A stretch of DNA of 45,801 nt from Bdellovibrionales bacterium (GTDB lineage: Bacteria > Bdellovibrionota > Bdellovibrionia > Bdellovibrionales > UBA1609): contig JALZUR010000013.1 of the NCBI GenBank assembly GCA_023301025.1, positions 1 through 45,801 of the forward strand, read 5' to 3'. Below the pieces are notes generated by a model. The model was not told the origin of the DNA. It was given only the letters and a program-made list of their open reading frames with translations, and made no database searches. A program made the position numbers and the translations under genes. Shown piece by piece: positions 6,936 to 45,801 of this stretch (position 1 is the first letter of the stretch; each line of letters starts with the position of its first letter).

Positions 6936-8369
6936 TCATAAACTTATTTTTTCTATAAAATCTTTTGGAATATTGTCAAAACTACCATTAGACATAAAAA
7001 GAATAAGACAGTTTTTTCTCACTTTAGAACATAAAAAGTCTATTAGCTCTTCTTTATTTTTAGGGGCAAGTGCGTCTCCACCACTTTTATTTATGTCATC
7101 AGCAAGGCTTTGGGTTGAAAATGTGTCTAGTTTTGATTTTTTTGAAACTGGCGCAATCACTGATTGGTCGCTGCTTTTAAAGCTTTTCACATAATCACTT
7201 TGAAAAACGGAACGCCTTGATGTGGCAGATCTTGGTTCGAAAACAGCTACAATTTCTTTTTCCGGGTACCTCAACTTAAACGACTCAATTGTAGATTTAA
7301 CAGCTGTTGGGTGATGGGCAAAATCCTCAAACACTGTGACTGAACTGTTTTCATAGATCTTTTGCTGTCTTCTTTTAACACCTTTATAGCTCTTTGCAGA
7401 CTCTATAATTTTATTAATATCTAACCCCCTATAACTAAGCAAAGTTAACACTGATAAAAAATTTAATGAATTATAGGTGCCAAACCACGATCCAAAAAAT
7501 TGAATCTCTTTATCCCCAATTTTTACTAAAAGCTCTGTTCCCTTATCTGTTACTCTTTCTTTTAAAATACACGAATCATTATAAGACTCTAATCCATATG
7601 AGAGTTTTTTAAACTTTGTATCATACCTATTAAGAATATCTTTAATATTCTTATCATCTCCATTGTAAACCAAAACTGAGTCTTCTCTTTTTATAGATTC
7701 AATTAAAATGCAAAAAGCTTTCTTAACATCTTCAAGATCATCGTAGATATCTATATGATCAAACTCCACCCCTGTTAAAATGGTGTTCTTTGGATGGTAG
7801 TGTTTAAATTTAGGAACCTTATCAAAAAATGCAGTGTCGTACTCATCCCCTTCAATAACAAACCACTCAGAATCCCGTGCAGAAAAAGAGTATTCAAAAT
7901 TATTAGGAACTCCACCAATAAGAAAACCAGGATTTTGGTTTAAAGTCTCTAAGGCCCATGCAGCCATGCTTGTTGTCGTGGTTTTCCCATGTGTTCCACA
8001 ACATACCAGGCTTTGCCTTTCTTTTAAAAAAATTTCTCCCAGTAACGATGGTAAAGATGTAAAAGGAATTTCACTATTTAATAAAGCTTTAGTCTCTTCC
8101 ATTTTTTTAGTGATTACATTTCCCACAACTACAAAGTCAGGTGCAGGGCTTAGATTTTCTTTTTTAAAGCCTTTCATAATAGGCACGCCCAAGCTTTCTA
8201 ATTGTGTAGACATAGGCGGATAAACATTTTGATCACTGCCTGTAATCTTAAAGCCTTTTTCTTTTAGTAGCCCCGCAAGACTTCCCATAGCTGTCCCGCA
8301 TATGCCCATTAAATGTATATGCGCCCCTTTTTTTAAACTTCTAAATTTTTCTAAATCAGGACTGTTCAT
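6936..8369 (-). CDS. mpl: UDP-N-acetylmuramate:L-Ala-gamma-D-Glu-meso-Dap ligase
   Basis: Recycles the tripeptide from degraded peptidoglycan by joining it to UDP-MurNAc in the cytoplasm, using ATP. 477 residues in the Mur-ligase fold: N-terminal UDP-sugar domain (HIHLMGICGTAMGSLAGLL, TGSDQNVYPPMSTQL), P-loop GTHGKTTTT (125-133) and C-terminal ligase domain (EDFAHHPTAV). Mpl rather than MurC is indicated by IGGVPNNF and EGDEYDTAFFDK (173-184), where MurC has a shorter DESD-type block. A good SD (AAGGAG, 7 bases before ATG) lies inside the upstream gene, which overlaps by 14 bases. The ldcA gene in the same operon supports a recycling role. Confidence 0.92.
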   Translation of the reverse strand: MNSPDLEKFRSLKKGAHIHLMGICGTAMGSLAGLLKEKGFKITGSDQNVYPPMSTQLESLGVPIMKGFKKENLSPAPDFVVVGNVITKKMEETKALLNSEIPFTSLPSLLGEIFLKERQSLVCCGTHGKTTTTSMAAWALETLNQNPGFLIGGVPNNFEYSFSARDSEWFVIEGDEYDTAFFDKVPKFKHYHPKNTILTGVEFDHIDIYDDLEDVKKAFCILIESIKREDSVLVYNGDDKNIKDILNRYDTKFKKLSYGLESYNDSCILKERVTDKGTELLVKIGDKEIQFFGSWFGTYNSLNFLSVLTLLSYRGLDINKIIESAKSYKGVKRRQQKIYENSSVTVFEDFAHHPTAVKSTIESFKLRYPEKEIVAVFEPRSATSRRSVFQSDYVKSFKSSDQSVIAPVSKKSKLDTFSTQSLADDINKSGGDALAPKNKEELIDFLCSKVRKNCLILFMSNGSFDNIPKDFIEKISL

Positions 8370-9369
8370 TTAAAAACTCCTTATATAAAAGATCATGAAC
8401 CCAAGGTCTAAAGTCTTTAAAATTATTATTAGTGCGTTCTGGGTATGTTCTGTTACTTAAAACTGAAACATAAAAATCTACCTTTGGATCAAACCAAAAT
8501 GATGTCCCCGTAAAACCAAGATGTCCAATAGAGTCTTTTGAAAAAAACGACCCTGCAGTTGAAGCACTGCCAGAAGGCATCATAAACCCCATAGTCCACC
8601 CTTTAGTCTTTTTCTTAAAGTAATCAGGATTATAAACATCTCTAAGAACAAAATAAAACTGAAACATATCTTCAATGGAACCAAAAAGACCAGCATGCGT
8701 TGATGCCCCACCCATGGCCCATGTATTGTCATCAAAAACTTCAGCTTGAAGTTTTCTTTTACGCCACTTGCACTTTTCTGTAGGTGCATACAGTGATTTT
8801 TTAAACATGCTGATGTTGTCTGTATTAAAATGAAAACCTTTAGAAAGTTTAAACTTCTTTTTTAAATCTTCTAAGATAAGGTCCATACTTTTAAAACCTT
8901 CTAGCTCTCGGACAACTTGATATAAGATTAAATAACCAAGATCAGAGTATAAAGGTTTTGTATTCTGTAGTTTATTCAGGTCTTTACGAAGTAGATTTTT
9001 TAAACATAAGTTTTTATTAGAGGTTTTATTTAACTCTTTATAATGCTCTTTGTGGGATTCAAGCCCTGAGGTGTGTGTAAGAAAACTCTCCAAAGTTATC
9101 TTCGTTTCATGAAGCCAAGGAAGAACATCACAAACCCTAGTTTTTAAAAAATTTTTATCGCTCTTACTTTTATCTAAAAAATAAAGACCTGTAAAAATTG
9201 ATTTAGTCATTGAGGCTAAATCATAAAATTTATAAGCTTTTCCAAAGTTGTAAATGTAGGACTTTTTACCTTTAAAACCAACAACAACAGAGCATGAAAA
9301 ATTACTATGCTGATTTTTATTAAGAAGTTTTAAAAGCTTCTCTGAAATTTTTCGATCTAGGCGAGTCAT
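8356..9369 (-). CDS. Beta-lactamase-fold serine hydrolase (S12/class C type), no signal peptide
   Basis: 337 residues with the serine beta-lactamase/penicillin-binding fold signatures: SMTK (Ser53-Lys56) as the SxxK nucleophile motif, YSD (141-143) in the YxN position, and HLGFTG (283-288) in the place of the KTG strand. WAMGGASTHAGLFGS and SFWFDPKVDFYVSVLSN are typical of the esterase/D-aminopeptidase-like subgroup. There is no signal peptide, so it should act in the cytoplasm, unlike true beta-lactamases. It starts 3 bases after ldcA and overlaps mpl by 14 bases. This placement between two muropeptide-recycling enzymes suggests it hydrolyses a cell-wall peptide, amide or ester during recycling; that is inference. 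Resistance to beta-lactams is not implied. Confidence 0.82.
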   Translation of the reverse strand: MTRLDRKISEKLLKLLNKNQHSNFSCSVVVGFKGKKSYIYNFGKAYKFYDLASMTKSIFTGLYFLDKSKSDKNFLKTRVCDVLPWLHETKITLESFLTHTSGLESHKEHYKELNKTSNKNLCLKNLLRKDLNKLQNTKPLYSDLGYLILYQVVRELEGFKSMDLILEDLKKKFKLSKGFHFNTDNISMFKKSLYAPTEKCKWRKRKLQAEVFDDNTWAMGGASTHAGLFGSIEDMFQFYFVLRDVYNPDYFKKKTKGWTMGFMMPSGSASTAGSFFSKDSIGHLGFTGTSFWFDPKVDFYVSVLSNRTYPERTNNNFKDFRPWVHDLLYKEFLNEQS

Positions 9370-9372
9370 ACT

Positions 9373-10293
9373 TTATATATTGTTTATCAGACAAGGTGCT
9401 TCGTCTAGTCTAAGCTCTGTCTTTTTCATAAACCACAAGGGCCTGTTGTTTTTATGCTCATGTCCTGCACTTAATCCCCATAAAACAGGCAGCTTTAAAT
9501 TTAAAGACCACTCATGGACTGCTTTTTTTATAAGCTCTTCTTGATTTTTATTTGAATGAATCATGTGACCAAAAATAAGGGCTGAAACACCATCAAAGAA
9601 GCCAGCTTGAAACATGTGAGTAAGATGCCTTATAACTTTATAAGCAGGCTCTTCAACCTCTTCTATGAAAAGTATTTTATTTGAAGCTCCCTTGTTAAAG
9701 GGTGTACCTAAAAGACTCACTAAAGTTGTTAAATTTCCTCCAACAACTTGTCCTCGAATCGAAGCATTTGATTTATTTTGTGATTTGTTTAAGAACATCA
9801 AGTTCTCAAATCTAAAAGGCTCACCCAAGTTATCAAGTACCAAGTCCATTTGCTTTAAAACCTGTTCGCTATGTAAATTTTTACTAAAACTATTGGGATG
9901 AGGAGCGTGAAGGCTTGCCTTATTTAAATGCATATTTAAAAAGTAATGGATGGATGTGTTGTCACTAAAACCCATAAAAATTTTGTCATCTTTAAAGTTG
10001 ATATCTTTAAAAAACGGTAAAAGTTGGTGTGAACCATACCCCCCTCTTAGGGACCAAACATATTTGGAATCCAAAGATTCAAAAGCCTCTTTAAGCTCCT
10101 CAAATCTAACCCTTAAACTCTCAGAACAGAGTAAATCAGAACTCTCATCACGTAGAAGGTGATCTCTAAAAACAAGAGTAACTCCCTTATTTGCCCAGTA
10201 CTTTACAGTATTTGTTAACTCTGCAGAGGCTAGCTTAAATGCCGGTGAAACCAACATTACCCTCAAATTTGTTGCAGCAGAAGCCTGAGTCAT
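9373..10293 (-). CDS. ldcA: LD-carboxypeptidase (S66), muropeptide recycling
   Basis: Removes the terminal D-Ala from L-Ala-D-Glu-Dap-D-Ala, giving the tripeptide that Mpl uses. 306 residues, cytoplasmic (no signal peptide). S66 features in order: LVSPAF, SLRGGYGSHQLLPF, GFSDNT with nucleophile Ser110, GQVVGGNLTTL, FIEEVEEPAY with catalytic Glu211, and GLSAGHEHKNN with His278, together the Ser-Glu-His triad. The start is ATG at 10293, preceded by AAGGAG. It lies 23 bases after the GNAT gene and 3 bases before the serine hydrolase gene. All key residues are present. Confidence 0.92.
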   Translation of the reverse strand: MTQASAATNLRVMLVSPAFKLASAELTNTVKYWANKGVTLVFRDHLLRDESSDLLCSESLRVRFEELKEAFESLDSKYVWSLRGGYGSHQLLPFFKDINFKDDKIFMGFSDNTSIHYFLNMHLNKASLHAPHPNSFSKNLHSEQVLKQMDLVLDNLGEPFRFENLMFLNKSQNKSNASIRGQVVGGNLTTLVSLLGTPFNKGASNKILFIEEVEEPAYKVIRHLTHMFQAGFFDGVSALIFGHMIHSNKNQEELIKKAVHEWSLNLKLPVLWGLSAGHEHKNNRPLWFMKKTELRLDEAPCLINNI

Positions 10294-10992: not shown

Positions 10993-12507
10993 ATGTGTGG
11001 TGTACTTGCAATCTTTAAAAACCAACCTGTGGGCACAGAGCTTTTTGATGGCCTTACAAGTCTTCAACACCGTGGACAAGATGCCGCGGGCATCTCTACT
11101 TTAGAGACCACAGGTAGAATAAACACGGTCAAGGGTGCTGGCTTAGTAAGAGATGTTATACGCACAAGACATATGCATCGCTTAAAAGGTCACATGGGAA
11201 TAGGGCATGTAAGATACCCTACGGCAGGGACAGACTCTAAAGAGTCGGCCCAACCCTTTTATGTAAATTCCCCTTTTGGAATAACCTTAGCTCACAACGG
11301 AAACCTTGTTAATGTTGATGAACTCATCACAGATTTATCTGATAAAGACTTTAGACATTTAAACACAGGCTCTGACTCCGAAGTTTTATTAAATATTCTG
11401 GCTCATGAACTCCAAAAAGAAAGTATAGATTCAAAACCAACTGTTAAAGAAATCTTTAAAGCAGTAGAAAAAGTTCATGAACGCTGTGAAGGCGCGTACG
11501 CTGTTACAGCTCTTATCTCAGGCCTGGGCGTTCTTGCTTTTAGAGATCCACAAGGCATAAGACCTTTAGTTTACGGCACTCAGAAAAGCCAATTAAAAGA
11601 CAATTTGTCTGACCATCTTAATAATGATTCAGCTGACCAAAAATTTAAAAAAGACCATATTATAGCCTCAGAAACAGTTGCCTTAGATCAACTCAACTAC
11701 ACATTTGAAAAAAATATTTCTCCTGGTGGAATGATATTTATTGATCTTGAGGGGCAAGTTCATGAGCCTAATAAAAGTAGTGAACTAAAAACCCCTAACC
11801 CCTGTTTGTTTGAATTTGTTTATATGGCAAGACCTGACTCAATTATTGATGAGATCTCCGTTCACAAAACACGCTTACGCCTTGGTGATAAACTAGGGCA
11901 TCAAATTAAAAAAGAATGGGCTGATAAAGACATTGATGTAGTCATGCCGATACCTGACACCAGTAGAACAGCTGCTTCAGTTGTGGCAAATATTTTAGAT
12001 GTAAAATTTAGAGAGGGATTTATAAAAAATCGTTACATTGGGCGAACTTTTATTATGCCAGGGCAAGAGACTAGAAAAAAATCTGTAAGACAAAAACTAA
12101 ACACAATAGATTTAGAGTTTGATGGTAAAAATGTACTTTTAGTTGATGACTCTATTGTAAGAGGTACAACCAGTAAGGAAATAATCAGCATGGCAAGAGA
12201 GGCAGGGGCTAAAAAAGTATTTTTTGCCTCAGCATCTCCAATGGTAGCCTACCCTAATGTATACGGTATTGATATGCCAGCAGCTGATGAACTCATCGCA
12301 CATAACAGAACAGTTGATGAGATTAACACACTTATTGGATCAGACAGTTTGATCTTTCAAAAACTTGAAAAACTTTATGAAGCTTGCAGTGAAGGCAATC
12401 CGAAAATAACAAACTTCGAAGACTCCGTTTTTACAGGAAACTACATATGCGGTGACATTGGAAAAAGCTACCTTGAAAAACTCTACTCTTCTAGGTCTAA
12501 ACGCTAG
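10993..12507 (+). CDS. purF: Amidophosphoribosyltransferase
   Basis: First committed step of purine synthesis: PRPP plus glutamine to 5-phosphoribosylamine. 504 residues. Cys2 of MCGVLAIF is the N-terminal glutaminase nucleophile, exposed after Met removal, with no propeptide. LQHRGQDAAG, HVRYPTAG and HNGNLVN follow. The C-terminal phosphoribosyltransferase domain has the PRPP loop VLLVDDSIVRGTTS (about 379-392). No SD is evident before the ATG; a TATACA box at 10962-10967 may be the -10. It is separate from the main purine operon, which is on the opposite strand 0.6 kb further on. purD, purH, purE and purK are not in the window. Confidence 0.96.
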   Translation: MCGVLAIFKNQPVGTELFDGLTSLQHRGQDAAGISTLETTGRINTVKGAGLVRDVIRTRHMHRLKGHMGIGHVRYPTAGTDSKESAQPFYVNSPFGITLAHNGNLVNVDELITDLSDKDFRHLNTGSDSEVLLNILAHELQKESIDSKPTVKEIFKAVEKVHERCEGAYAVTALISGLGVLAFRDPQGIRPLVYGTQKSQLKDNLSDHLNNDSADQKFKKDHIIASETVALDQLNYTFEKNISPGGMIFIDLEGQVHEPNKSSELKTPNPCLFEFVYMARPDSIIDEISVHKTRLRLGDKLGHQIKKEWADKDIDVVMPIPDTSRTAASVVANILDVKFREGFIKNRYIGRTFIMPGQETRKKSVRQKLNTIDLEFDGKNVLLVDDSIVRGTTSKEIISMAREAGAKKVFFASASPMVAYPNVYGIDMPAADELIAHNRTVDEINTLIGSDSLIFQKLEKLYEACSEGNPKITNFEDSVFTGNYICGDIGKSYLEKLYSSRSKR

Positions 12508-13090: not shown

Positions 13091-15241
13091 TTAGACACCT
13101 ACTTTTTTATTCCACGAATCTTTTGATTCTTTTTTTAGTCTTTCAACATCTATTATAGACTCACTGTACTTAAGTTCTCCACCCTCTTTAGTTTGACCTA
13201 AATATACAAATCCAAAGTCTTCAGGAATATCAAGATCAGGAGAGTTTTTAAATTCTAAGACAACTTCATAAAGGCTTTCTGAAAAAAGTCTTTCATCGTC
13301 GATTTCAACGTCCAAATCAAAACCAATATTTTTTGAAGACATTTTGAATAGTGAGCCCATTAGGCCCATTGAACCAACAACACGTGAAGATAAAAGTGAA
13401 CTTTTTTTAGAACGAGCAATTTCAATTAAAATTTTAGAAAACTCATTAACTTTTTTAAACTCTAAATCACCTGAACCTTGAATATTTTCAAGAAAAGCGC
13501 CAGACCAAATAAAATCTCTACATGAAAGTAAATAAACCTCAGATCCTACATTTTGAAAACTTGATCTTACGGGCTCGTAATCATCTAAAACTTTTTGAGT
13601 GTTTAAACCAACAACACCAACAGAAGGCGTTGGGCAAATGTTCTCTCCTTCGGTTTCATTGAATAGACTCACATTCCCAGAAATAATAGGAGATTTAAAG
13701 CTCTCACAAGCAAGGCTTAATCCCTTTAAGCTTGAGGCAAAGTCACCCATAACCTCAGGTCTTAATGGGTTTCCAAAATTTAAACAGTCCGTCACAGCCC
13801 ATGGCTCATAGCCTTTAGAAGACAGGGCAAGAGCCGGATGCAGAAAAGCGTCAGCTCCACCAAAAAAAGGATTTAAACTCATTAGTTTTTGTCTGCAGCC
13901 CAGAGCTATACCAACAGATCTTTTACTTTCCGGGAGAACAACAGCACCAATCTGTTCAGAACAATCAAGAAGTGTAGAGGCACCAACTCTTTGATCATAT
14001 TGGTCATACACCCACTCTTTGGAAGCTCCATGAACAGAATGAAAGTAGCCTAAAAGATCAGTTGATGATTCAACCTGATCATTTTCAATAAACATTTTTG
14101 TTTCAAACTCATGGTTGTATTCAGGAGCTTTACCAACAATAAGATTCGGATCAATCTTACAAAGTGTATCACCCTTCCATAAGAGTAGAATTTCAGGCTC
14201 TTTTCTAACGTGACCAACACATACAGCATCAAGCCCCCATTTTTTAAACACCATTTCAATCTTATCTAAATTTTCAGCTTTACACGTTAGAAGCATACGC
14301 TCCTGGCTTTCAGAAAGTAAAATCTCTTCAGGAGTTAGAGTCTGATCTCTTAATGGGACTTTTGACAGATCAAGTTCTAAACCAAGACCACCACCATAAG
14401 ACATTTCAAAACTAGAGCTTGTTAAACCAGCAGCTCCCATATCTTGTACAGCCTCAACAAGTCCACTTTTCATAACTTCTAAACAACTTTCAATAAGACA
14501 CTTTTCATAAAAAGGATCTCCTATTTGAATAGTCGGTCTCTTACTTTCCGAATCTTTGTCAAAAGATTCAGAGGCCATAGAAGCACCATGAACACCGTCT
14601 CGGCCTGTCTTTGCACCCACATAAACTAAAAGATTACCTGGAATTTTAATTTTTGAAGAAATAATTTTATCTTCTTTACCGTAGTATCCAAGGGCAAAAG
14701 CATTTACTAAATTGTTTTTATTATAAGAACTGTGAAATTTGGTTTTTCCAGTAACATTTGGAACACCTACACAGTTTCCGTAAAATGAAATTCCTGAGAC
14801 CACACCACTTACAAGTTCCGATAGTCTATTAGATCCACTTTCTCCAAAGCAAAGATAGTTTGCTAAAGCAATCGGTCTTGCTCCCATAGTAAAGATGTCT
14901 CTTAAGATTCCACCAACACCTGTTGCAGCACCTTGAAAGGGTTCAATAAAACTTGGGTGGTTGTGACTCTCCATTTTAAAAGCAATGCGCTCACCTTCAC
15001 CTAAATCAACAACCCCTGCGTTTTCACCTTCTTCAGAAACAATTCTGTCAGATGTATTATAAAGCTTTCTTAAAAATGTTTTAGATGATTTATAACTGCA
15101 GTGCTCGCTCCATAGGCTTGAAAAAAGAGCCCATTCAATATCCGTAAGATTTTCTTTTTTTAAAAGCTTTAAAGCATAGTCATACTCATTTTTTGATAAA
15201 CCATAATGCTTTAATTTTTCAACTAGATTTTTAGACTCCAC
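13091..15241 (-). CDS. purL: Phosphoribosylformylglycinamidine synthase, small PurL subunit
   Basis: ATP-dependent conversion of FGAR to FGAM using ammonia delivered by PurQ. 716 residues, the short PurL that works with separate PurQ and PurS, not the 1,300-residue fused enzyme of E. coli. Recognisable blocks: WSEHCSYKSSKTFLR, FKMESHNHPSFIEPFQGAATGVGG, IFTMGARPIALANYL, AVQDMGAAGLTSSSFEM and AVTDCLNFGNPLRPEVMGDF. The start abuts the purQ stop with no gap. It is the last gene of the purine operon. Confidence 0.96.
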   Translation of the reverse strand: MESKNLVEKLKHYGLSKNEYDYALKLLKKENLTDIEWALFSSLWSEHCSYKSSKTFLRKLYNTSDRIVSEEGENAGVVDLGEGERIAFKMESHNHPSFIEPFQGAATGVGGILRDIFTMGARPIALANYLCFGESGSNRLSELVSGVVSGISFYGNCVGVPNVTGKTKFHSSYNKNNLVNAFALGYYGKEDKIISSKIKIPGNLLVYVGAKTGRDGVHGASMASESFDKDSESKRPTIQIGDPFYEKCLIESCLEVMKSGLVEAVQDMGAAGLTSSSFEMSYGGGLGLELDLSKVPLRDQTLTPEEILLSESQERMLLTCKAENLDKIEMVFKKWGLDAVCVGHVRKEPEILLLWKGDTLCKIDPNLIVGKAPEYNHEFETKMFIENDQVESSTDLLGYFHSVHGASKEWVYDQYDQRVGASTLLDCSEQIGAVVLPESKRSVGIALGCRQKLMSLNPFFGGADAFLHPALALSSKGYEPWAVTDCLNFGNPLRPEVMGDFASSLKGLSLACESFKSPIISGNVSLFNETEGENICPTPSVGVVGLNTQKVLDDYEPVRSSFQNVGSEVYLLSCRDFIWSGAFLENIQGSGDLEFKKVNEFSKILIEIARSKKSSLLSSRVVGSMGLMGSLFKMSSKNIGFDLDVEIDDERLFSESLYEVVLEFKNSPDLDIPEDFGFVYLGQTKEGGELKYSESIIDVERLKKESKDSWNKKVGV

Positions 15242-15907
15242 TTAAATATCCTTATTAACGAGTAGTTTTTCAAAAAATTCTTTACCATGTTGAGATCCCA
15301 TCCAAGTACTCATAGCGCGTTCAGGGTGTGGCATTAAGGCAGCTACATTTTTATCTTCATTTAAAACACCAGCAATATCTCCAACACTTCCGTTTGGATT
15401 ATCCTTATAGGTTAACCAAACTTGATCCTTACTTCTAAGTGTCTCTAATTCTGAGTTTGTTACATAAAAGCACCCATCACCGTGGGCAATAGGTATTCTG
15501 CATTCTTTTTCATTTAAAGACCAAAGAGAATTTTTAGATTCAGATTTCAAAGTCACCCATCTGTCAATAAAACTTAACTCTTTGTTCTTTACTAGAGCTC
15601 CAGGTAAAAGCCCTCTTTCCGTTAAAACTTGAAAACCATTACAGATCCCAAGAACTGGACCACCTTGTTTTGCAAAGGCTTCCACATCATCCATTACTGT
15701 AGTTTTTGCAGCTAAGGCACCTGATCTTAAATAATCTCCATAAGAAAAACCACCAGGCAAAACAAGTCCATCATAATCATTAATATTAAAGTGATCTTCA
15801 TACCACAACCAATGAGCCTCTAGACCGTTTGTAGAATCAACGGCCCTATAAACATCAGCATCACAGTTTGTACCTAAAAACCTAACAACACCAATCTTTC
15901 TACTCAT
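15242..15907 (-). CDS. purQ: FGAM synthase glutaminase subunit
   Basis: Class I glutamine amidotransferase that supplies ammonia to PurL. 221 residues. The triad is Cys89 (GICNGFQVL), His194 and Glu196 (MPHPERAM). LPGGFSYGDYLRSGA is the typical PurQ block. It abuts purS upstream and purL downstream with no spare bases, consistent with coupled translation of the three-part complex. Confidence 0.96.
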   Translation of the reverse strand: MSRKIGVVRFLGTNCDADVYRAVDSTNGLEAHWLWYEDHFNINDYDGLVLPGGFSYGDYLRSGALAAKTTVMDDVEAFAKQGGPVLGICNGFQVLTERGLLPGALVKNKELSFIDRWVTLKSESKNSLWSLNEKECRIPIAHGDGCFYVTNSELETLRSKDQVWLTYKDNPNGSVGDIAGVLNEDKNVAALMPHPERAMSTWMGSQHGKEFFEKLLVNKDI

Positions 15908-16135
15908 CTAAGCCTCAACTTCAAAGACTTCTATATCTTCAATAAGAGGATTAAAAAGAACATAGTCAGCCATTTTTAAAAGCTCATCTTTATTTTTTTC
16001 AGATTCAATCTCGACATAACGTCCAACCTTGCACTCACTTAAAGAAAACCCACCTCTTTCTAAAACCTGTTTAACAGCCCGTCCCTGAGAATCTAGAACA
16101 TCTTTTTTTGGCATAACTCTAATTCCATACTTCAT
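15908..16135 (-). CDS. purS: FGAM synthase structural subunit
   Basis: Small dimeric protein that holds PurQ and PurL together. 75 residues, normal size (family about 80). Typical start (IRVMPKKDVLDSQGRAV) and end (NPLIEDIEVFEVE). It overlaps the end of purC by four bases (ATGA) and is followed at once by purQ. Confidence 0.93.
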   Translation of the reverse strand: MKYGIRVMPKKDVLDSQGRAVKQVLERGGFSLSECKVGRYVEIESEKNKDELLKMADYVLFNPLIEDIEVFEVEA

Positions 16136-16860
16136 GATACAATCTCCTCAATTCTTTTTAACACTTCTGCGTATTTTTCTTCAACCTTCCCTAAATCTTG
16201 TCTAAACCTATCTTTATCTAAAACTTCACCAGAAGATGAGTCCCACAATCTACAACTGTCAGGAGAGATTTCATCAGATAAAATAATTGTATCTTTTTCA
16301 TCTTTTCCAAACTCAATTTTAAAATCAACAAGATCTATACCAATTTTTTCAAAAAAACTTATAAGTAAAGTGTTTATATGAAAGGCTTTGGTTTTTAATT
16401 CATTGTACTCTCTTTCATTGCACAATTCTAAAAGGTCTACATGCTCTCTTGTAAGCAAAGGATCTCCAAGTTCATCTTTTTTATAAAAAACTTCAAAAAC
16501 TGGACTTTCAAATTTTTTACCTTTTGTAATTCCTAGTCGTTTGCAAATAGATCCTGCTGCAAAGTTTCGAACTACGACTTCTAAGGGTATTATTTTAGTT
16601 TTTTTAACAATCCAATCCTTATCTGTAAGAGGCTTAACTAGATGAGTTTCCATACCATTTTTTTCTAAGTGATAAAATATATGAGTCGAAATTTTTAAAT
16701 TAAGCCTTCCTTTTCCAGAAAAACTTCCCTTTTTCTCGGCATTAAAAGCTGTAAGATCATCTTTGAATTCAATCCAAAGATAATTTTTTTTATTAGTTTC
16801 ATAAAGTTTTTTTGCTTTTCCCTCATATAAAAAATCTAATTTTTTAAAATCTTCGCTCAC
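16132..16860 (-). CDS. purC: SAICAR synthetase
   Basis: Joins aspartate to CAIR using ATP. 242 residues, full length. Blocks seen: LYEGKAKKLYET (ATP-binding N-terminus), KKTKIIPLEVVVRNFAAGS, LLTREHVDLL and LSDEISPDSCRLWD (the substrate-binding signature). It lies 68 bases after purB and overlaps purS by four bases. Confidence 0.95.
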   Translation of the reverse strand: MSEDFKKLDFLYEGKAKKLYETNKKNYLWIEFKDDLTAFNAEKKGSFSGKGRLNLKISTHIFYHLEKNGMETHLVKPLTDKDWIVKKTKIIPLEVVVRNFAAGSICKRLGITKGKKFESPVFEVFYKKDELGDPLLTREHVDLLELCNEREYNELKTKAFHINTLLISFFEKIGIDLVDFKIEFGKDEKDTIILSDEISPDSCRLWDSSSGEVLDKDRFRQDLGKVEEKYAEVLKRIEEIVS

Positions 16861-16928: not shown

Positions 16929-18233
16929 TTAAATCTTTTTATTTTTTGGAAGACACTGATTGATTCTTTTTTTGATGTTCTTAACATGACGTTTTCCAGA
17001 AAAGAGAGCGTTCAAATTTTTAAGATCAACATACTTTAGAATCTCAATATTACTTTTAACTTTATCTTCATAAATCTCACCTTCAGATATACTATGAGCA
17101 ATCGACTGCACAAGCTTATAAGCATCTTCTCTTTTTAGACCTGCATCCACCAAGTCTAGAAGTAGATGAGATGAGTAAATCTGACCACCTAAAAGATTTA
17201 AATTCATAAGCATTCTGCTTTCATCAACATAAAGACCTTTTAAAACTCTAGTTATTCTATTTAATGCATAATCTAATAGAGTAAAAGCATCTGGAAAAAT
17301 CACCCGCTCTACAGAAGAGTGAGAAATGTCACGTTCATGCCAAAGTGCAATGTTTTCCATGGAGGCTTGGGCATATGATCGAAGAAGCCTTGAAACACCT
17401 GTTAGATTTTCAGCACTGATAGGGTTTTTTTTGTGCGGCATAGCACTAGAGCCTTTTTGCCCTTTTGAAAAGCCCTCAATAACTTCTGAGACCTCTGTGC
17501 GTTGAAGGTGCCTAAGCTCAACTGATAAACGTTCAATAAATGCTCCTGTTAAAGCTATGCTGTTAAAAAGCTCAGAAAATCTATCCCTTGGCGTAACTTG
17601 AGTTGCAATAGGTTCGACTTTTAGGCCTAAGTCTTTACAAACTGAAGCCTCTACTTTTGGGCCTAAAAATGAATGCGTTCCGACTGCACCACTCAACTGA
17701 CCTACACGTGCTTGATCTAATGCGGTAATCAAACGCTTTTTATTTCTTTTTAACTCCTCATAGAAACCACAAAGCTTAAAACCAAAAGTTGTAGGCTCTG
17801 CATGAATACCATGGGTCCGTCCAACACAAAGAGTATCCCAGTGTTTTTGAATCATAGATTCTAAAACACTCTGAAGCACATTTATTTTTTTTAAAATCTC
17901 ATCACCAGATAGTTTAATTTGTAAGGCTAAACCTGTATCCAAAACATCAGAAGATGTTAAACCGTAGTGAATATACTTACCTGACTCACCCACATTTTCG
18001 GCTAGACACGAAACAAAAGCTATAATGTCATGCTTTGTTGTCTCTTCAATTTTTTTAATTCTCTTAATATTAAAACAAGCTTTACTTTTGATGTCTTTAA
18101 AAGCTTTTTTAGGAATAAGATCCATTTCAGACTGAGCCTTAGCTACTGAAATTTCAACATTCATTAAAGCTGACCATTTTGACTCTTCCGACCAAATTTC
18201 TGTCATCTCCGGTAAACTATATCTTGATATCAT
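16929..18233 (-). CDS. purB: Adenylosuccinate lyase
   Basis: Cleaves SAICAR to AICAR and adenylosuccinate to AMP, each releasing fumarate. Start chosen at ATG 18233 (MISRYSLPEMTEIW), 434 residues, because that is the family N-terminus and AAGGA lies four bases upstream; an earlier in-frame start at 18281 would add 16 residues of unrelated sequence. Signatures: GRTHGIHAEPTTFG and the mobile active-site loop KGSSAMPHKKNPISAEN. The 5' end overlaps the unknown gene upstream by 17 bases. Confidence 0.94.
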   Translation of the reverse strand: MISRYSLPEMTEIWSEESKWSALMNVEISVAKAQSEMDLIPKKAFKDIKSKACFNIKRIKKIEETTKHDIIAFVSCLAENVGESGKYIHYGLTSSDVLDTGLALQIKLSGDEILKKINVLQSVLESMIQKHWDTLCVGRTHGIHAEPTTFGFKLCGFYEELKRNKKRLITALDQARVGQLSGAVGTHSFLGPKVEASVCKDLGLKVEPIATQVTPRDRFSELFNSIALTGAFIERLSVELRHLQRTEVSEVIEGFSKGQKGSSAMPHKKNPISAENLTGVSRLLRSYAQASMENIALWHERDISHSSVERVIFPDAFTLLDYALNRITRVLKGLYVDESRMLMNLNLLGGQIYSSHLLLDLVDAGLKREDAYKLVQSIAHSISEGEIYEDKVKSNIEILKYVDLKNLNALFSGKRHVKNIKKRINQCLPKNKKI

Positions 18234-19341
18234 TTTGTCCTTCATTAAATAAGTTTTTTGATAGCCATTTTGTAAAATCAATTTGATAAGAAAAAACTAA
18301 GTCTGAATTAAAGCTCATCCACTCTCTAGGTGAATTCCACATGTACTGAGTGTCATTTATTTCACTGTAACCAGTACTTACTGGGAAAAGAGAATTAAAA
18401 TTAGAATTAAGTTCTGTCTTTTCTAAAAATTCAAAATCTATAAAACTAAAGTTTTTATTTAAAAACTCTTTTGAAAGTGAAATAGATTCTTCAATCTTTT
18501 CTTTATTATAAACCTGCTCTATAGTCCAAACATCTAGATATGTGTTATCCTTTGATTTAACTAAGATACATGAGTTCTCTTCTTTCCAAGTTTTATAAAA
18601 AGAGCTCACCCAAACAGACCATTCAGGAAGACTTAAAAGTTTTAGCGTGTCGCTTTCATTTGAAACCTTAAATCGTTTTCTAGACCAGCCAAGTTGCTCC
18701 GTTATATCATGTATGGTTTTTCCTGTAAAAATTTTAAGCTCTGTTACAGTTAAATCAACAATCCAAGATTTAAAGTCATTTCGTATTTTAGGAAGTAGAG
18801 TATCCACATCTTTAAAAGTAACCTTTTCTACACTAACCCCACGTTTTTCAATCAAAGAAAGCCTTTTTTCATGGTCTCCCTTTTCGGAACGTCTCAAGTA
18901 GAACTTGCCAAACGGATCAAATGCATGCGGCTCTTCACGCCAAGCAGAAGAAAGTTTAAACCTTACTTTACCAAATGATTTTAAAAAATCTTCATACCAA
19001 AAAACAGCATCTTCTGTAGTATTATTATAAAAATCTTTTTTGTAGTGCTCAATCATAGATTCATAGTTTGCTGAAGATGAGCCTAAATGACCACTGGAGG
19101 ACGAAAAACAGAACCCAGTATCAATGAAATCTAAATCTTTCTTATCTTCAAAGAAAGATAAAAATAAATAGTCCATGTTGTTTTCTTTTTTCAGGAGAAA
19201 GGGTCCATCTTGATCTGCAATATTTTTTATACCAACATCATCAGTAACATCAAAAAACTTAACTTTAAAACCTTTCCGACAAAGACTATGTGCAAGCCAC
19301 ATTGATCTTCCAGCAATTGATAAAATTTTAATTTCTTTCAT
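18217..19341 (-). CDS. Unknown protein locked inside the purine operon, Rossmann-like N-terminus
   Basis: 374 residues; I recognise no family. It begins KEIKILSIAGRSMWLAHSLC, then GFKVKFFDVTDD: a strand-loop-helix-strand pattern like an FAD or NAD(P) Rossmann fold, but the GxGxxG loop is absent (AGRSMW instead). The rest is Trp-rich (more than ten) with acidic patches; no signal peptide or membrane span. It overlaps purN upstream by 14 bases and purB downstream by 17, so it sits in the same transcript and probably has coupled translation. Context suggests a purine-linked or flavin/nucleotide-linked role; no enzyme of the standard pathway fits it. It could be a degenerate oxidoreductase. Confidence 0.75.
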   Translation of the reverse strand: MKEIKILSIAGRSMWLAHSLCRKGFKVKFFDVTDDVGIKNIADQDGPFLLKKENNMDYLFLSFFEDKKDLDFIDTGFCFSSSSGHLGSSSANYESMIEHYKKDFYNNTTEDAVFWYEDFLKSFGKVRFKLSSAWREEPHAFDPFGKFYLRRSEKGDHEKRLSLIEKRGVSVEKVTFKDVDTLLPKIRNDFKSWIVDLTVTELKIFTGKTIHDITEQLGWSRKRFKVSNESDTLKLLSLPEWSVWVSSFYKTWKEENSCILVKSKDNTYLDVWTIEQVYNKEKIEESISLSKEFLNKNFSFIDFEFLEKTELNSNFNSLFPVSTGYSEINDTQYMWNSPREWMSFNSDLVFSYQIDFTKWLSKNLFNEGQNDIKI

Positions 19342-19867
19342 TTAAATATCGCCCCACTGTGTACTGCTCTAAAAAATGCACTCTTCTTTCTTCGTCTATT
19401 TTATCAAACACGTCTTTTTTTAAATTTAAAGAGCTTTGATGTATCATTGGTCCATCATCCATTTTTTCATTTACAAAATGAAGACTTACGCCAGTAGCTT
19501 TGTTTAGCGACAAAGATCTATCAATTGAGTTTAAACCTGGAAAATCAGGAAGAACGCTTGGATGAAGGTTTAGTATTTGACCTTTAAAAGAATTTAAAAA
19601 CTCTTTAGGTATCAGCTTCATAAAACCAAGAAGTATGATTTCTTTAATTTTTAATTTATTTAATTGATTAGAAAAGTTCAGCCAATCAGATTTTACTTTT
19701 AAAGAAACTACTTTTGTGTAAGCACCTCTTCTTTTGGCCCATTTTAACCCCTGTGCTTTTTCTGTATTTGAAAAAACATAGGTTTTATCTGTACCACAAT
19801 GTTCTAGCGCTGATTTTAAGTTAGAACCTCTTCCTGAGATAAAAATAGCTGACCTTGAATTTAACAT
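19328..19867 (-). CDS. purN: Phosphoribosylglycinamide formyltransferase, folate-dependent
   Basis: Transfers formyl from 10-formyl-THF to GAR. Start placed at ATG 19867 (MLNSRSAIFISGRGSN), 179 residues: this ATG overlaps the purM stop as TAATG and gives the standard N-terminus, while an ATG 15 bases earlier has no SD. Catalytic residues are present: Asn100 and His102 in ILNLHPSVLPDFPG, and Asp137 in KMDDGPMI. It overlaps the next gene by 14 bases. Confidence 0.93.
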   Translation of the reverse strand: MLNSRSAIFISGRGSNLKSALEHCGTDKTYVFSNTEKAQGLKWAKRRGAYTKVVSLKVKSDWLNFSNQLNKLKIKEIILLGFMKLIPKEFLNSFKGQILNLHPSVLPDFPGLNSIDRSLSLNKATGVSLHFVNEKMDDGPMIHQSSLNLKKDVFDKIDEERRVHFLEQYTVGRYLNERN

Positions 19868-20898
19868 TAACCTACAAACCATTTTGATTCAGATCTGTCT
19901 TTACTCAGTTCAACGACTCCAGTAGAAATTAGATTAAAATCTTCTTCTATATACTGAGCTACTTTTTTCGAGTCCTCTTCACTCACAACTAGAATTAAGC
20001 CTACACCACAGTTAAATGTTTTGAACATTTCATCAGTTGATAAACCTGATCTTTTTTGTGTCTCTGTAAGAAGATTTGACCACTGCCATTTTTTAATGGA
20101 CGCCAGGCTTCCCTTTGGCAAAACTCTTAATAGATTATCTAAACCACCACCCGTTATATGTGCACAAGCTCTAACGCCAGCAATGTTTTTGATCTTTTTA
20201 ACTAAGGGCCAATATAAAACTGTAGGCTCCATCAGTTCTGTTTTAAACTCACCGCCATCTTCTCCAAAAATTTTTCTTAACAAAGAGTAGCCGTTTGAAT
20301 GAAAACCAGAGCTACCAACAAGCAAGAGTTTATCATTGTTCTTTACCTTTACGGGAGACCACATTTTAGCTTTATCAACCACACCAACTGAAAATCCCGC
20401 AGCATCAAAATGGCCTTTTTCGTATAAGCCTGGAAGTTCGGCTGTTTCACCACCAATGAGCGCCATATTTGATTTTGAACATGCTGCTTTTAACTCTTTA
20501 AAGAAAACTTTTAAAAACTCAGGGTCTAACTTCGAGGAGGCAAAATAATCAAGAAAAAACAAAGGCTCTGCACCTACACAAACAAGATCATTTGCACACA
20601 TAGCAACTAAGTCTTGAGCAAGTCCTTTAACTAAACCACTCTGTAGCCCCATTAAAAGTTTAGTCCCGATACCATCTGTTGACGACACAAGTAAGGGCTC
20701 TTTATAAGTGCTAAGATCTGGGGCGAAAAGTGCAGAAAAACCACCAATACCAGAAACCACGTTTTTAGAGTGCGGGGCATCCTCAGTGTGTGAGATCTGC
20801 TCTTTCATCCACTCCACAGTTTGATCAGCTATTTCAATGTCGACTCCAGAGTCTTTATAACTTAGCTTTTTAGACTTTTGGCTTGGATCTTGGTCCAT
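19867..20898 (-). CDS. purM: Phosphoribosylformylglycinamidine cyclo-ligase (AIR synthetase)
   Basis: ATP-dependent ring closure of FGAM to AIR. 343 residues, full length. Blocks: SYKDSGVDIEIAD, VSGIGGFSALF, SSTDGIGTKLL, LIGGETAELPG, GLSTDEMFKTFNCGVG. A good SD (GAGGAAAT before ATG) marks it as the first gene of the purM-purN-unknown-purB-purC-purS-purQ-purL operon. The 91-base region to the divergent lipopeptide gene has no visible purine riboswitch. Confidence 0.95.
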   Translation of the reverse strand: MDQDPSQKSKKLSYKDSGVDIEIADQTVEWMKEQISHTEDAPHSKNVVSGIGGFSALFAPDLSTYKEPLLVSSTDGIGTKLLMGLQSGLVKGLAQDLVAMCANDLVCVGAEPLFFLDYFASSKLDPEFLKVFFKELKAACSKSNMALIGGETAELPGLYEKGHFDAAGFSVGVVDKAKMWSPVKVKNNDKLLLVGSSGFHSNGYSLLRKIFGEDGGEFKTELMEPTVLYWPLVKKIKNIAGVRACAHITGGGLDNLLRVLPKGSLASIKKWQWSNLLTETQKRSGLSTDEMFKTFNCGVGLILVVSEEDSKKVAQYIEEDFNLISTGVVELSKDRSESKWFVG

Positions 20899-20989: not shown

Positions 20990-21136
20990 ATGAAAAAGCT
21001 CTTATTAATAATTGTCACACTTATACTGCTTGCAGTAGCTTTTTTTAGCTTAAAAAGCTGTGAATCTAATGGAGGGGGTCTTTCTCCGTTAACACAGCAC
21101 ATTCACTCAAACCAGGGCCATCTTAAGCACATATGA
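20990..21136 (+). CDS. 48-residue putative lipoprotein/membrane peptide coupled to a beta-barrel gene
   Basis: ATG at 20990 preceded by GAGGAAAGATT (good SD). The N-terminus is KKLLLIIVTLILLAVAFF, a long hydrophobic stretch, followed by SLKSC with Cys24, then Gly-rich and His-rich short tail. Cys24 could be lipidated, though Lys at position -2 is unusual for a lipobox; otherwise it is a one-span membrane peptide. The stop TGA (21134-21136) overlaps the start of the outer-membrane protein gene as ATGA, implying coupled translation. Family unknown. Comparable in form to entericidin-like peptides, but no homology is claimed. Confidence 0.65.
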   Translation: MKKLLLIIVTLILLAVAFFSLKSCESNGGGLSPLTQHIHSNQGHLKHI

Positions 21137-21870
21137 AATTTTTTGTTCTCTTACTTTTTTCTTTAACCTTCTCACTTACTGGCCATGCCCAGTTTGTAGA
21201 TAATGTTGAAGATGGTTTTGAGCCTTTTGCCGACTATTCAGAGTTTGTAGAAGCTAGCACCGAAGAGACTGATATTAACTTTTTTAGATACGGAAGACTA
21301 TTGAGTGTAGGGGTAACTGGAGGTTATCAAGGACTTAACGGTGATCAAGTTGAATTTATAAAAGATGCAATAGAATTTGGAGCTTTTTTTACTTTTTACG
21401 CGAGTATCAATTTAGGCTTAAGATTAAGCTATAAAACAAGCAGTCATGATGCCTTTTATTTTATTCAAGAGATCAACAGTAACTACGAAGCCACCACTAG
21501 ATTTGATTTTTTCTCTCTTCATGCAAAGTATATCTTAAACACACAAAACCTAACTAAATCCATTGCAAAATATAATCCCTATATCATAGGTGGCTTAAGT
21601 CAGGTCTATAGAAACACAAATTCAAATCAACAAGTGCTTGTTTCATCTAGAGATGGAGCCCCAAGCTTTGATTTAGGGTTTGGTATAGAACATATATTTA
21701 ATAACAACAAAAACTTCATCGGACTTCAGGGTGTATATCACCTTGCAAACTTTCCTAACGACAACGATCCTTTAAACTTCACAAATGATGCAGGAATATT
21801 AGTGGACTCAGGTTTAAAGTTCAAAGGCCATATATACAGTATAAACTTTGTACTTGGTTTTAATTTTTAA
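21133..21870 (+). CDS. Outer-membrane beta-barrel protein, unknown family
   Basis: 245 residues. Signal peptide with likely cut after GHA (residue 19). The mature part alternates polar and hydrophobic residues in strand-sized blocks (GLRLSYKTS, FDFFSLHAKYIL, PYIIGGLSQVY, HIYSINFVLGFNF) and ends in Phe, as outer-membrane barrels recognised by BAM do. Size suggests an 8- to 10-strand barrel. It overlaps a 48-residue lipopeptide gene by four bases and is followed by a clear terminator, so the two form a small operon. No ligand or function can be told. Confidence 0.75.
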   Translation: MKFFVLLLFSLTFSLTGHAQFVDNVEDGFEPFADYSEFVEASTEETDINFFRYGRLLSVGVTGGYQGLNGDQVEFIKDAIEFGAFFTFYASINLGLRLSYKTSSHDAFYFIQEINSNYEATTRFDFFSLHAKYILNTQNLTKSIAKYNPYIIGGLSQVYRNTNSNQQVLVSSRDGAPSFDLGFGIEHIFNNNKNFIGLQGVYHLANFPNDNDPLNFTNDAGILVDSGLKFKGHIYSINFVLGFNF

Positions 21871-21966: not shown

Positions 21967-22821
21967 TCAAAACTCTCTATCATCACCATGTCTATCATTG
22001 TCATTCTGATCAGGGTCAATTTCATTCTCAGATTCAGTGATACCTAAATCATGACATGTTTGCATAAAGTCTTTTTCATTGTCTAAATCTTTTCCCATGA
22101 TGTCTAAAAACTTATCAGGATATCTGGCTGTTAACTCAATAACGTAGTCATTTAACTTGCCATCGTTTAAGATTTTTTTTCTAAGCTGAATCTTTTTCCA
22201 ATTTAAAATATAATGAAACCTGCAATAGCCTTGAACCTCTGCAGGGTTGTCACAATTCACAACACGACACAGAACACGCCCTTCAGCATCAGTAATTGAG
22301 ACTTTACCCGTTTTTTTATCTCTAGACACAGAGGTCAGTGCATGGGCAATTTTTGAGTTTTGATCCGCTATGCTAGCAGAACTCGTAGCAGATGATTTTG
22401 CACTACTGCTTTTAACAGGTTTTTTAGTAACAGACGAATCAGCTGCAGTATTCTTTGGCTTCGGTGTAGCACTTGTTTTTTTATTTGAACGTACATTTGA
22501 AGTTTTTAGAGAAGTGTCTTTTTTAGCAGAAGTCTTTTTAGAAGCGCTTTTAGAAACTGCTGCTTTCTTGACAACCTTCTTAGTTATTTTTTTAACTATT
22601 TTTTTCTTAAGTGTCTTTGCTTTAGCCACTGCTTTTTTTAAAACAGATTTTTTAGCTGTCGCCTTTTTTTTAGACACTTGTTTTTTTGTAGTTTTTTTAC
22701 TTGAAGTAACTTTGCTTTTTTTTGCAACTTTTTTCACAGCTTTTTTCTTGGATGCTTTTGCTGGTGCTTTTTTTGATGAGCTTTTAGCACCTTTAACTTT
22801 TTTAACTTTCTTTTTTGACAT
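21967..22821 (-). CDS. Histone H1-like Lys/Ala-rich protein with C-terminal Cys/His motif
   Basis: 284 residues from ATG 22821 (MSKKKVKKV, AAGG eight bases upstream); an in-frame ATG at 22839 would add six residues. Residues 1 to about 150 are almost only Lys, Ala, Ser, Thr and Val in KKA/KKS repeats, like histone H1 tails, and should bind DNA or RNA. The C-terminal part is folded: RVLCRVVNC, GYCRFHYILNWKKIQ. Cys185, Cys190, Cys200 and His203 give C-x4-C-x9-C-x2-H, a possible zinc site. It ends in an acidic tail rich in Asp/Asn. Likely a nucleoid- or RNA-associated protein. I know no name for the C-terminal domain. The repeated tail has the base bias expected of Lys codons and makes a false ORF on the other strand. 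Confidence 0.72.
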   Translation of the reverse strand: MSKKKVKKVKGAKSSSKKAPAKASKKKAVKKVAKKSKVTSSKKTTKKQVSKKKATAKKSVLKKAVAKAKTLKKKIVKKITKKVVKKAAVSKSASKKTSAKKDTSLKTSNVRSNKKTSATPKPKNTAADSSVTKKPVKSSSAKSSATSSASIADQNSKIAHALTSVSRDKKTGKVSITDAEGRVLCRVVNCDNPAEVQGYCRFHYILNWKKIQLRKKILNDGKLNDYVIELTARYPDKFLDIMGKDLDNEKDFMQTCHDLGITESENEIDPDQNDNDRHGDDREF

Positions 22822-22945
22822 ACCTTTAACCTTGATCATCTAATGAGGATTCAGTAGTTTGACTGGGACAATATGTCAGCTTTAGATGCTTCTAGCAAGC
22901 CTCTTTAGATCTAATAATTTATTTAAAAAAAAGGGGTACAACACT

Positions 22946-45366: not shown

Positions 45367-45801
45367 ATGTCAAAAAAAGCGATAGTCATTGGATCTGGTT
45401 TTGGTGGATTAGCTAGTGCTGTTTACCTTTTAAATAAAAACTATGAAGTTACACTTTTAGAAGCGCAAAATCAATTTGGTGGTAGAGCGGGGGTTTTTAA
45501 ACAAGATGGTTTCACATTTGATGCTGGACCAACAGTTATAACTGCGCCTTATCTAATTAGAGATCTATTCAGTCTTCTTGATGAAGACCCTGATGACTAT
45601 TACAAACTTATGGAAGTTGATCCTTTCTACAGAATTATTTTTGATGATCAATCTGTTTTTGATTATGTTGGTGATGAAGAGCGAATTATTGAAAATATAG
45701 CAAAACTTAGTCCCAAAGACGTCGATGGTTATTTAAAACTAGCAGCACATGCAAAAGAAATATTTGATGTAGGCTACACAAAATTAGCAGACTCCCCGTT
45801 T
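45367..45801 (+). CDS. Phytoene desaturase-family FAD oxidoreductase (3' end outside window)
   Basis: First 145 codons visible. FAD-binding loop IVIGSGFGGLASAVYLL (about 6-22), then LLEAQNQFGGRAGVF and FTFDAGPTVITAPYLI, the usual CrtI N-terminus. Probably desaturates phytoene or a C30 relative on the way to carotenoids. AAGG precedes ATG by seven bases. It follows the ABC permease by 78 bases, on the same strand as the polyprenyl synthase, so the row reads as a carotenoid/isoprenoid operon. The exact member (CrtI, CrtN, CrtD) cannot be set from this part. Confidence 0.9.
   Translation, partial: MSKKAIVIGSGFGGLASAVYLLNKNYEVTLLEAQNQFGGRAGVFKQDGFTFDAGPTVITAPYLIRDLFSLLDEDPDDYYKLMEVDPFYRIIFDDQSVFDYVGDEERIIENIAKLSPKDVDGYLKLAAHAKEIFDVGYTKLADSPF

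Follow-up and report, generated by a model that had tools for sequence, protein, structure and literature searches.

A class-wide, undescribed protein family with a predicted FAD-oxidoreductase fold encoded beside purB in the Bdellovibrionia

A gene for a 374-residue protein, here called X, lies between purN and purB in a purine operon of a Bdellovibrionales bacterium. What kind of protein is it, and does it belong to purine synthesis, to one of its neighbours, or to neither? The window, which is the whole stretch of DNA analysed, comprises positions 1-45,801 (45,801 nucleotides) of contig JALZUR010000013.1, assembly GCA_023301025.1. A preliminary description, made from the letters of the window, had located the gene at 18217-19341, with overlaps of 14 nt (purN) and 17 nt (purB). 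The position and both overlaps were correct; the strand, which had been left unstated, is minus, and the plus-strand translation of the same interval is full of stops. The features needed here are as follows.

18217-19341, minus strand: X, 374 aa, predicted FAD-oxidoreductase (GR2/phytoene-desaturase/Rab-GDI) fold, undescribed family
19303-19320, minus strand: SIAGRS, codons 8-13 of X, where GxGxxG, the FAD pyrophosphate loop, would stand; none of its three Gly is present
19249-19251, minus strand: Asp, codon 31 of X, acidic residue ending strand 2, ribose-binding position
16929-18233, minus strand: purB (adenylosuccinate lyase), directly downstream of X
19328-19882, minus strand: purN, directly upstream of X; in many relatives the slot is without purN
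19867-20898, minus strand: purM
16132-16860, minus strand: purC
15242-15907, minus strand: purQ, assigned from the sequence as read, its position and the operons of relatives
13091-15241, minus strand: purL
6936-10293, minus strand: LD-carboxypeptidase (9373-10293), beta-lactamase-like (8356-9369) and Mur-ligase (6936-8369) genes

The gene order in the window is purM, purN, X, purB, purC, purQ, purL. X starts with ATG at 19341. The best start of purB is ATG 18233, which is the first plausible one and has AAGGA ahead of it at 18238-18242; the 17-nt overlap is counted from this start, and the mechanically derived reading frame of purB begins at TTG 18281. A purF-like gene at 10993-12507 is read from the plus strand, against the direction of the pur operon; most relatives have it at the end of the operon, in the operon's direction. 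The gene at 21133-21870 (plus strand) encodes an uncharacterised protein of 245 aa with a signal-peptide-like start and without a Pfam match. Most loci of the class have this gene next to purM or X and divergently transcribed, including loci with altered pur genes, and it is strikingly constant, nearly as much as X. Another gene (21967-22839, minus strand) encodes a 290-aa protein, the N-terminal half of which is very rich in Lys, Ala and Ser and resembles histone H1.

Homologues of X were searched at several depths. Among 99 genomes, X was found in 42 by single-sequence search, the window's own genome counted, and in 90 by profile search. In the whole class Bdellovibrionia, the profile detected X in 121 of 144 genomes (92 of the 106 good ones), including Bdellovibrio bacteriovorus (L130); the named members are those of the Bdellovibrionales and B. 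bacteriovorus. In a phylum-wide sample of 291 genomes, every match lay within the Bdellovibrionia and none elsewhere in the phylum. Within the family the window protein is short and divergent, sharing 16-22% identity with the others. No Pfam, NCBIfam or PHROG model was passed by X, and none of 32 members reached a curated cut-off. Whether run with one sequence or with the family, searches of Pfam, NCBIfam, PHROGs and PDB sequences returned either chance-level matches or sub-threshold matches to FAD enzymes in the right register. X resembles no purine enzyme or accessory subunit: no Pur family of Pfam or NCBIfam matched it, and its best fold matches are of FAD-oxidoreductase type. No paper on X was found in the open-access literature. 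The gene had been called undescribed, and these searches agree with that. The high Trp content noted earlier was also borne out: 12 of the 374 residues (3.2%) are Trp, compared with 1.0% in window ORFs longer than 200 aa. The content is 2.9-4.3% in all 32 aligned members, several Trp are invariant, and Trp richness is, from these sequences, a property of the whole family. For species pairs of Bdellovibrio, dN/dS was about 0.04-0.13 (X) and 0.03-0.09 (purB), rough values with synonymous sites near saturation; X is under purifying selection there. Homologues throughout a class, together with this selection, indicate that X is a real gene. X represents a genuine, undescribed, class-wide protein family with an FAD-oxidoreductase fold.

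The fold was predicted for two members. The AlphaFold2 model of B. bacteriovorus X, built with a 32-sequence alignment, has a pLDDT of 92 and a pTM of 0.90. Its full-length matches by Foldseek and VIA-align 2 are NicA2, MAO, phytoene desaturase, PPO, and Rab-GDI/REP, with Foldseek E values down to 2e-12 and a VIA Z score of 18 over 394 residues to 4rep. The model of the window protein is weaker (pLDDT 79), and matches the same fold group. Structure prediction thus shows a full-length two-domain fold of the FAD amine-oxidase/phytoene-desaturase/Rab-GDI type. A fold match to FAD/NAD oxidoreductases had been proposed earlier as a sign of an enzyme. The match was found, in the AlphaFold2 models and their PDB hits; the FAD loop, however, is rewritten, and the fold does not establish an enzyme. 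The shared fold does not show the function of X, and the fold matches pick no substrate.

Three groups of known proteins are useful for comparison. The GR2 flavoproteins (amine oxidase, phytoene desaturase, and protoporphyrinogen oxidase; PF01593, PF01266) share with X the full-length fold, the N-terminal β-α-β unit, and the acidic end of strand 2; unlike them, X has SxFGRG in place of GxGxxG and passes no family model. A canonical protein of this kind is also encoded in the window (45403-45801, plus strand), where the N-terminal part of an amine-oxidase-type flavoprotein (PF01593, E 2e-15) is cut by the contig end. The Rab GDP-dissociation inhibitor and Rab escort protein have the same fold as X (structural matches 1gnd, 1d5t, 1ukv, 3cph, and 1vg0), and are among the best rows of the structure search at about 9-14% identity. 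These eukaryotic proteins bind prenylated Rab GTPases and work without FAD as a protein-binding module; the comparison with X concerns the fold. Renalase has the GR2 fold, a weak profile match to the C-terminal half of X (E about 1), and a Z score of 13.5 against the window model (4zcd). It is a canonical FAD protein, unlike X, and there is no significant sequence match.

The cofactor loop was compared by profile alignment (hhalign) of X with nine amine-oxidase-type proteins from related genomes; the score is modest, and the register is supported by the outgroup. The X segment VxxSAFGRGxWLAxxL aligns on VxxGSGFGGLxxAxxL, D34 of X falls on the Glu of the FAD ribose site, and near the C-terminus NLxxDGPE is matched with the desaturase NLYFSGAG. 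In the 32 members the first Gly of the loop is always Ser; the second is Phe or Tyr in 30 and Gly in none. Arg15 and Trp18 do not vary, strand 2 ends in D or E in 32/32, and the first Gly of the GG doublet is kept in 30/32. Conserved residues of the B. bacteriovorus protein include S11, R15, W18, W259, W261, and R263. At the C-terminal motif, where the GR2 FAD enzymes have GD/GE or similar, the members mostly read [GS]-P-E, with Pro in 29/32 and Glu in 29/32. The order-wide motif is S-x-[FY]-G-R-G-x-W-L-A; the window protein reads SIAGRS. The earlier view of the N-terminus, a Rossmann-like start that lacks GxGxxG, is therefore confirmed, and the relatives add SxFGRG within the order and GSGxRG in the outgroup.

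This outgroup is a deep-branching family of the same class outside the order (f11), three members of which read GSGFRG, GTSFRG, and GSGLRG. The GxGxxG loop is intact in two of the three (L180 and L228), and L180 matches Pfam DAO with E 7e-5 and 23 bits, below the curated cut-off of 27.9. An FAD-like ORF upstream of purB was looked for by eye in 27 loci of the phylum; none was seen outside the class, and the only one was that of L228, of the same class. The GSGxRG loops and the DAO match suggest that the ancestor of X was probably an FAD protein. The strict conservation of the replaced loop points to a new constraint rather than decay. Canonical FAD binding by the Bdellovibrionales proteins is doubtful from their sequences, and we infer that they do not bind FAD. 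Some flavoproteins may tolerate changed loops, and FAD loss in X is not proven.

Gene order provides the second line of evidence. The usual order in the class is purM-(purN)-X-purB-purC-purQ-purL-purF, after which LD-carboxypeptidase, beta-lactamase-like, and Mur-ligase genes come in several genomes. Bdellovibrio and several other lineages no longer have purM/N and purC-F at the site, and this second gene set directly follows X-purB where purC-purF left it. Adjacency was counted from where the top-scoring X and PurB matches lie in the 113 genomes having both on one contig. By coordinates, X immediately precedes purB in the same orientation in 110 genomes, and in 111 after reading of G263 (L178), where X in fact adjoins purB and the profile match had been partial. 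In the two remaining genomes, both of genus g14, other sequence lies between the genes; these two aside, X was not found away from purB in the 113 genomes compared. On the PurB tree, the gene after purB changed at least seven times and X was lost outright only twice, approximate numbers, since the tree was built quickly and many of its branches are weak.

The losses of other purine genes are informative here. The purL gene was not detected in G020, G017, G030, and G089, nor was purM in G020 and G089; X-purB is kept in all four. In three further genomes (G059, G070, and G096) purM and a long purL of a different type both lie elsewhere, and X does not follow purM or purL where these sit elsewhere in Bdellovibrio. 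Retention of X with purB in genomes without purM and/or purL indicates that X follows purB, not the pathway. The idea of a purine-linked protein accordingly stands in part: the tie to purB is lasting (111/113), and the tie to the pathway as such fails. Relatives carrying the gene elsewhere had been named as evidence against the link; they break it for the rest of the operon and leave it in place for purB.

Two genomes, G057 (g30) and G078 (g33), keep purB without X and have no ORF in the slot. Genus g33 as a whole gave no match to the X profile. True absence in most of its genomes was considered and rejected: eight of the nine genomes inspected have a very divergent ORF of 315-336 aa in the slot, taken as X from position and weak scores (E 5e-8 to 8), which suggests shrinkage. 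PurL itself is of two kinds. The short operon form of about 716 aa comes with a separate PurQ, whereas Bdellovibrio and some relatives have a long form. The long PurL (about 945-1019 aa) lies away from X-purB in G059, G070, G074, G080, G094, G096, G078, G047, and G055, which suggests that the ancestral purine operon was replaced.

The reading that we prefer, at a probability of roughly 0.4, is that X is a cytosolic protein of flavoprotein descent that probably works without FAD and is made together with PurB as a binder, regulator, or ligand sensor. The predicted fold and the outgroup motifs support an origin from FAD-dependent oxidoreductases in the amine oxidase/phytoene desaturase superfamily. 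The gene would have joined the purine operon at the root of the class. In the order Bdellovibrionales, GxGxxG would then have become the strictly conserved S-motif, with the fold and the acidic residue of strand 2 kept. Such a protein most likely no longer binds FAD canonically and is non-redox, like Rab-GDI, and would bind another ligand or a protein. The persistence of X next to purB through the loss of other purine genes makes a role connected with PurB, or with the adenylosuccinate-to-AMP step still carried out by PurB, the most likely one. Made with PurB from overlapping genes, it would tune, stabilise, or sense around PurB. The fold comes from model prediction, and what we say of function we infer; the link to PurB is drawn from gene order and gene loss, and its molecular action is hypothetical. 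The main weakness of the preferred reading is the lack of covariation between the two proteins. Of the six operon genes compared, X is the fastest-evolving, ahead of the five pur genes, and its distances show no excess covariation with those of PurB beyond the operon average (partial r -0.02, versus up to about 0.3 with purQ and purM). This argues against a tightly co-evolving interface or complex, and a tight X-PurB complex is unproven. The two genomes that have purB without X, and the separated pair in genus g14, also count against the preferred reading.

The same data can be read in other ways. X might be a working flavoenzyme with a non-canonical FAD loop, co-transcribed with purB and oxidising some metabolite, for example in the repair of damaged nucleotides, as renalase repairs dihydronicotinamide isomers. 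The whole fold is kept, as are the ribose acidic residue and the first Gly of the doublet; two of the three outgroup loops are intact, renalase is among the fold matches of the window model, and in-register profile matches to it and to many FAD enzymes exist, although weak and non-significant. However, the first two loop Gly are replaced in all 32 members and all three are gone in the window, no flavoenzyme model was passed at cut-off, and the fold matches are common to the whole superfamily and thus indicate no substrate; a working flavoenzyme seems somewhat unlikely. It is unlikely, too, that X is unrelated to purines and PurB and stays beside purB only for a good promoter site in an old operon. 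The absence of rate covariation fits such an unrelated function, as do the peptidoglycan-recycling genes that often come after X-purB and the generally old gene order around purM in the Bdellovibrionia; but X stayed with purB while flanking genes on both sides were repeatedly deleted or moved, and only the two g14 genomes separate them. A service to de novo synthesis, by protecting an unstable intermediate or supplying a step between PurN and PurB, as first proposed, would suit the tight overlaps in the window. It is very improbable, because X is retained in the four genomes without purL and/or purM, does not follow the relocated genes in Bdellovibrio, and resembles no purine enzyme. Of the original choice among a regulator, a sensor, and a protective enzyme, what is left is either a binder or sensor linked to PurB or a flavoenzyme of an unusual kind. 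A fuller form of the PurB-linked reading, in which the Bdellovibrionia, the Bdellovibrio predators among them, turned a flavoenzyme into a dedicated partner of PurB or a nucleotide sensor, without redox chemistry and controlling the adenylosuccinate/AMP branch, as a prokaryotic counterpart of the repurposing of Rab-GDI, is quite unlikely to hold in every part.

Among the best-studied predatory bacteria X is nearly universal yet uncharacterised; its gene is fixed beside that of a core enzyme, and it has no curated family model. Either a PurB-linked protein or a flavoenzyme is testable in B. bacteriovorus. If X were an active flavoenzyme with a rewritten loop, it would represent an unusual mode of FAD binding. 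If it were flavin-free and acted on PurB, it would represent a new control of AMP synthesis, and a flavoenzyme fold repurposed outside the eukaryotes.
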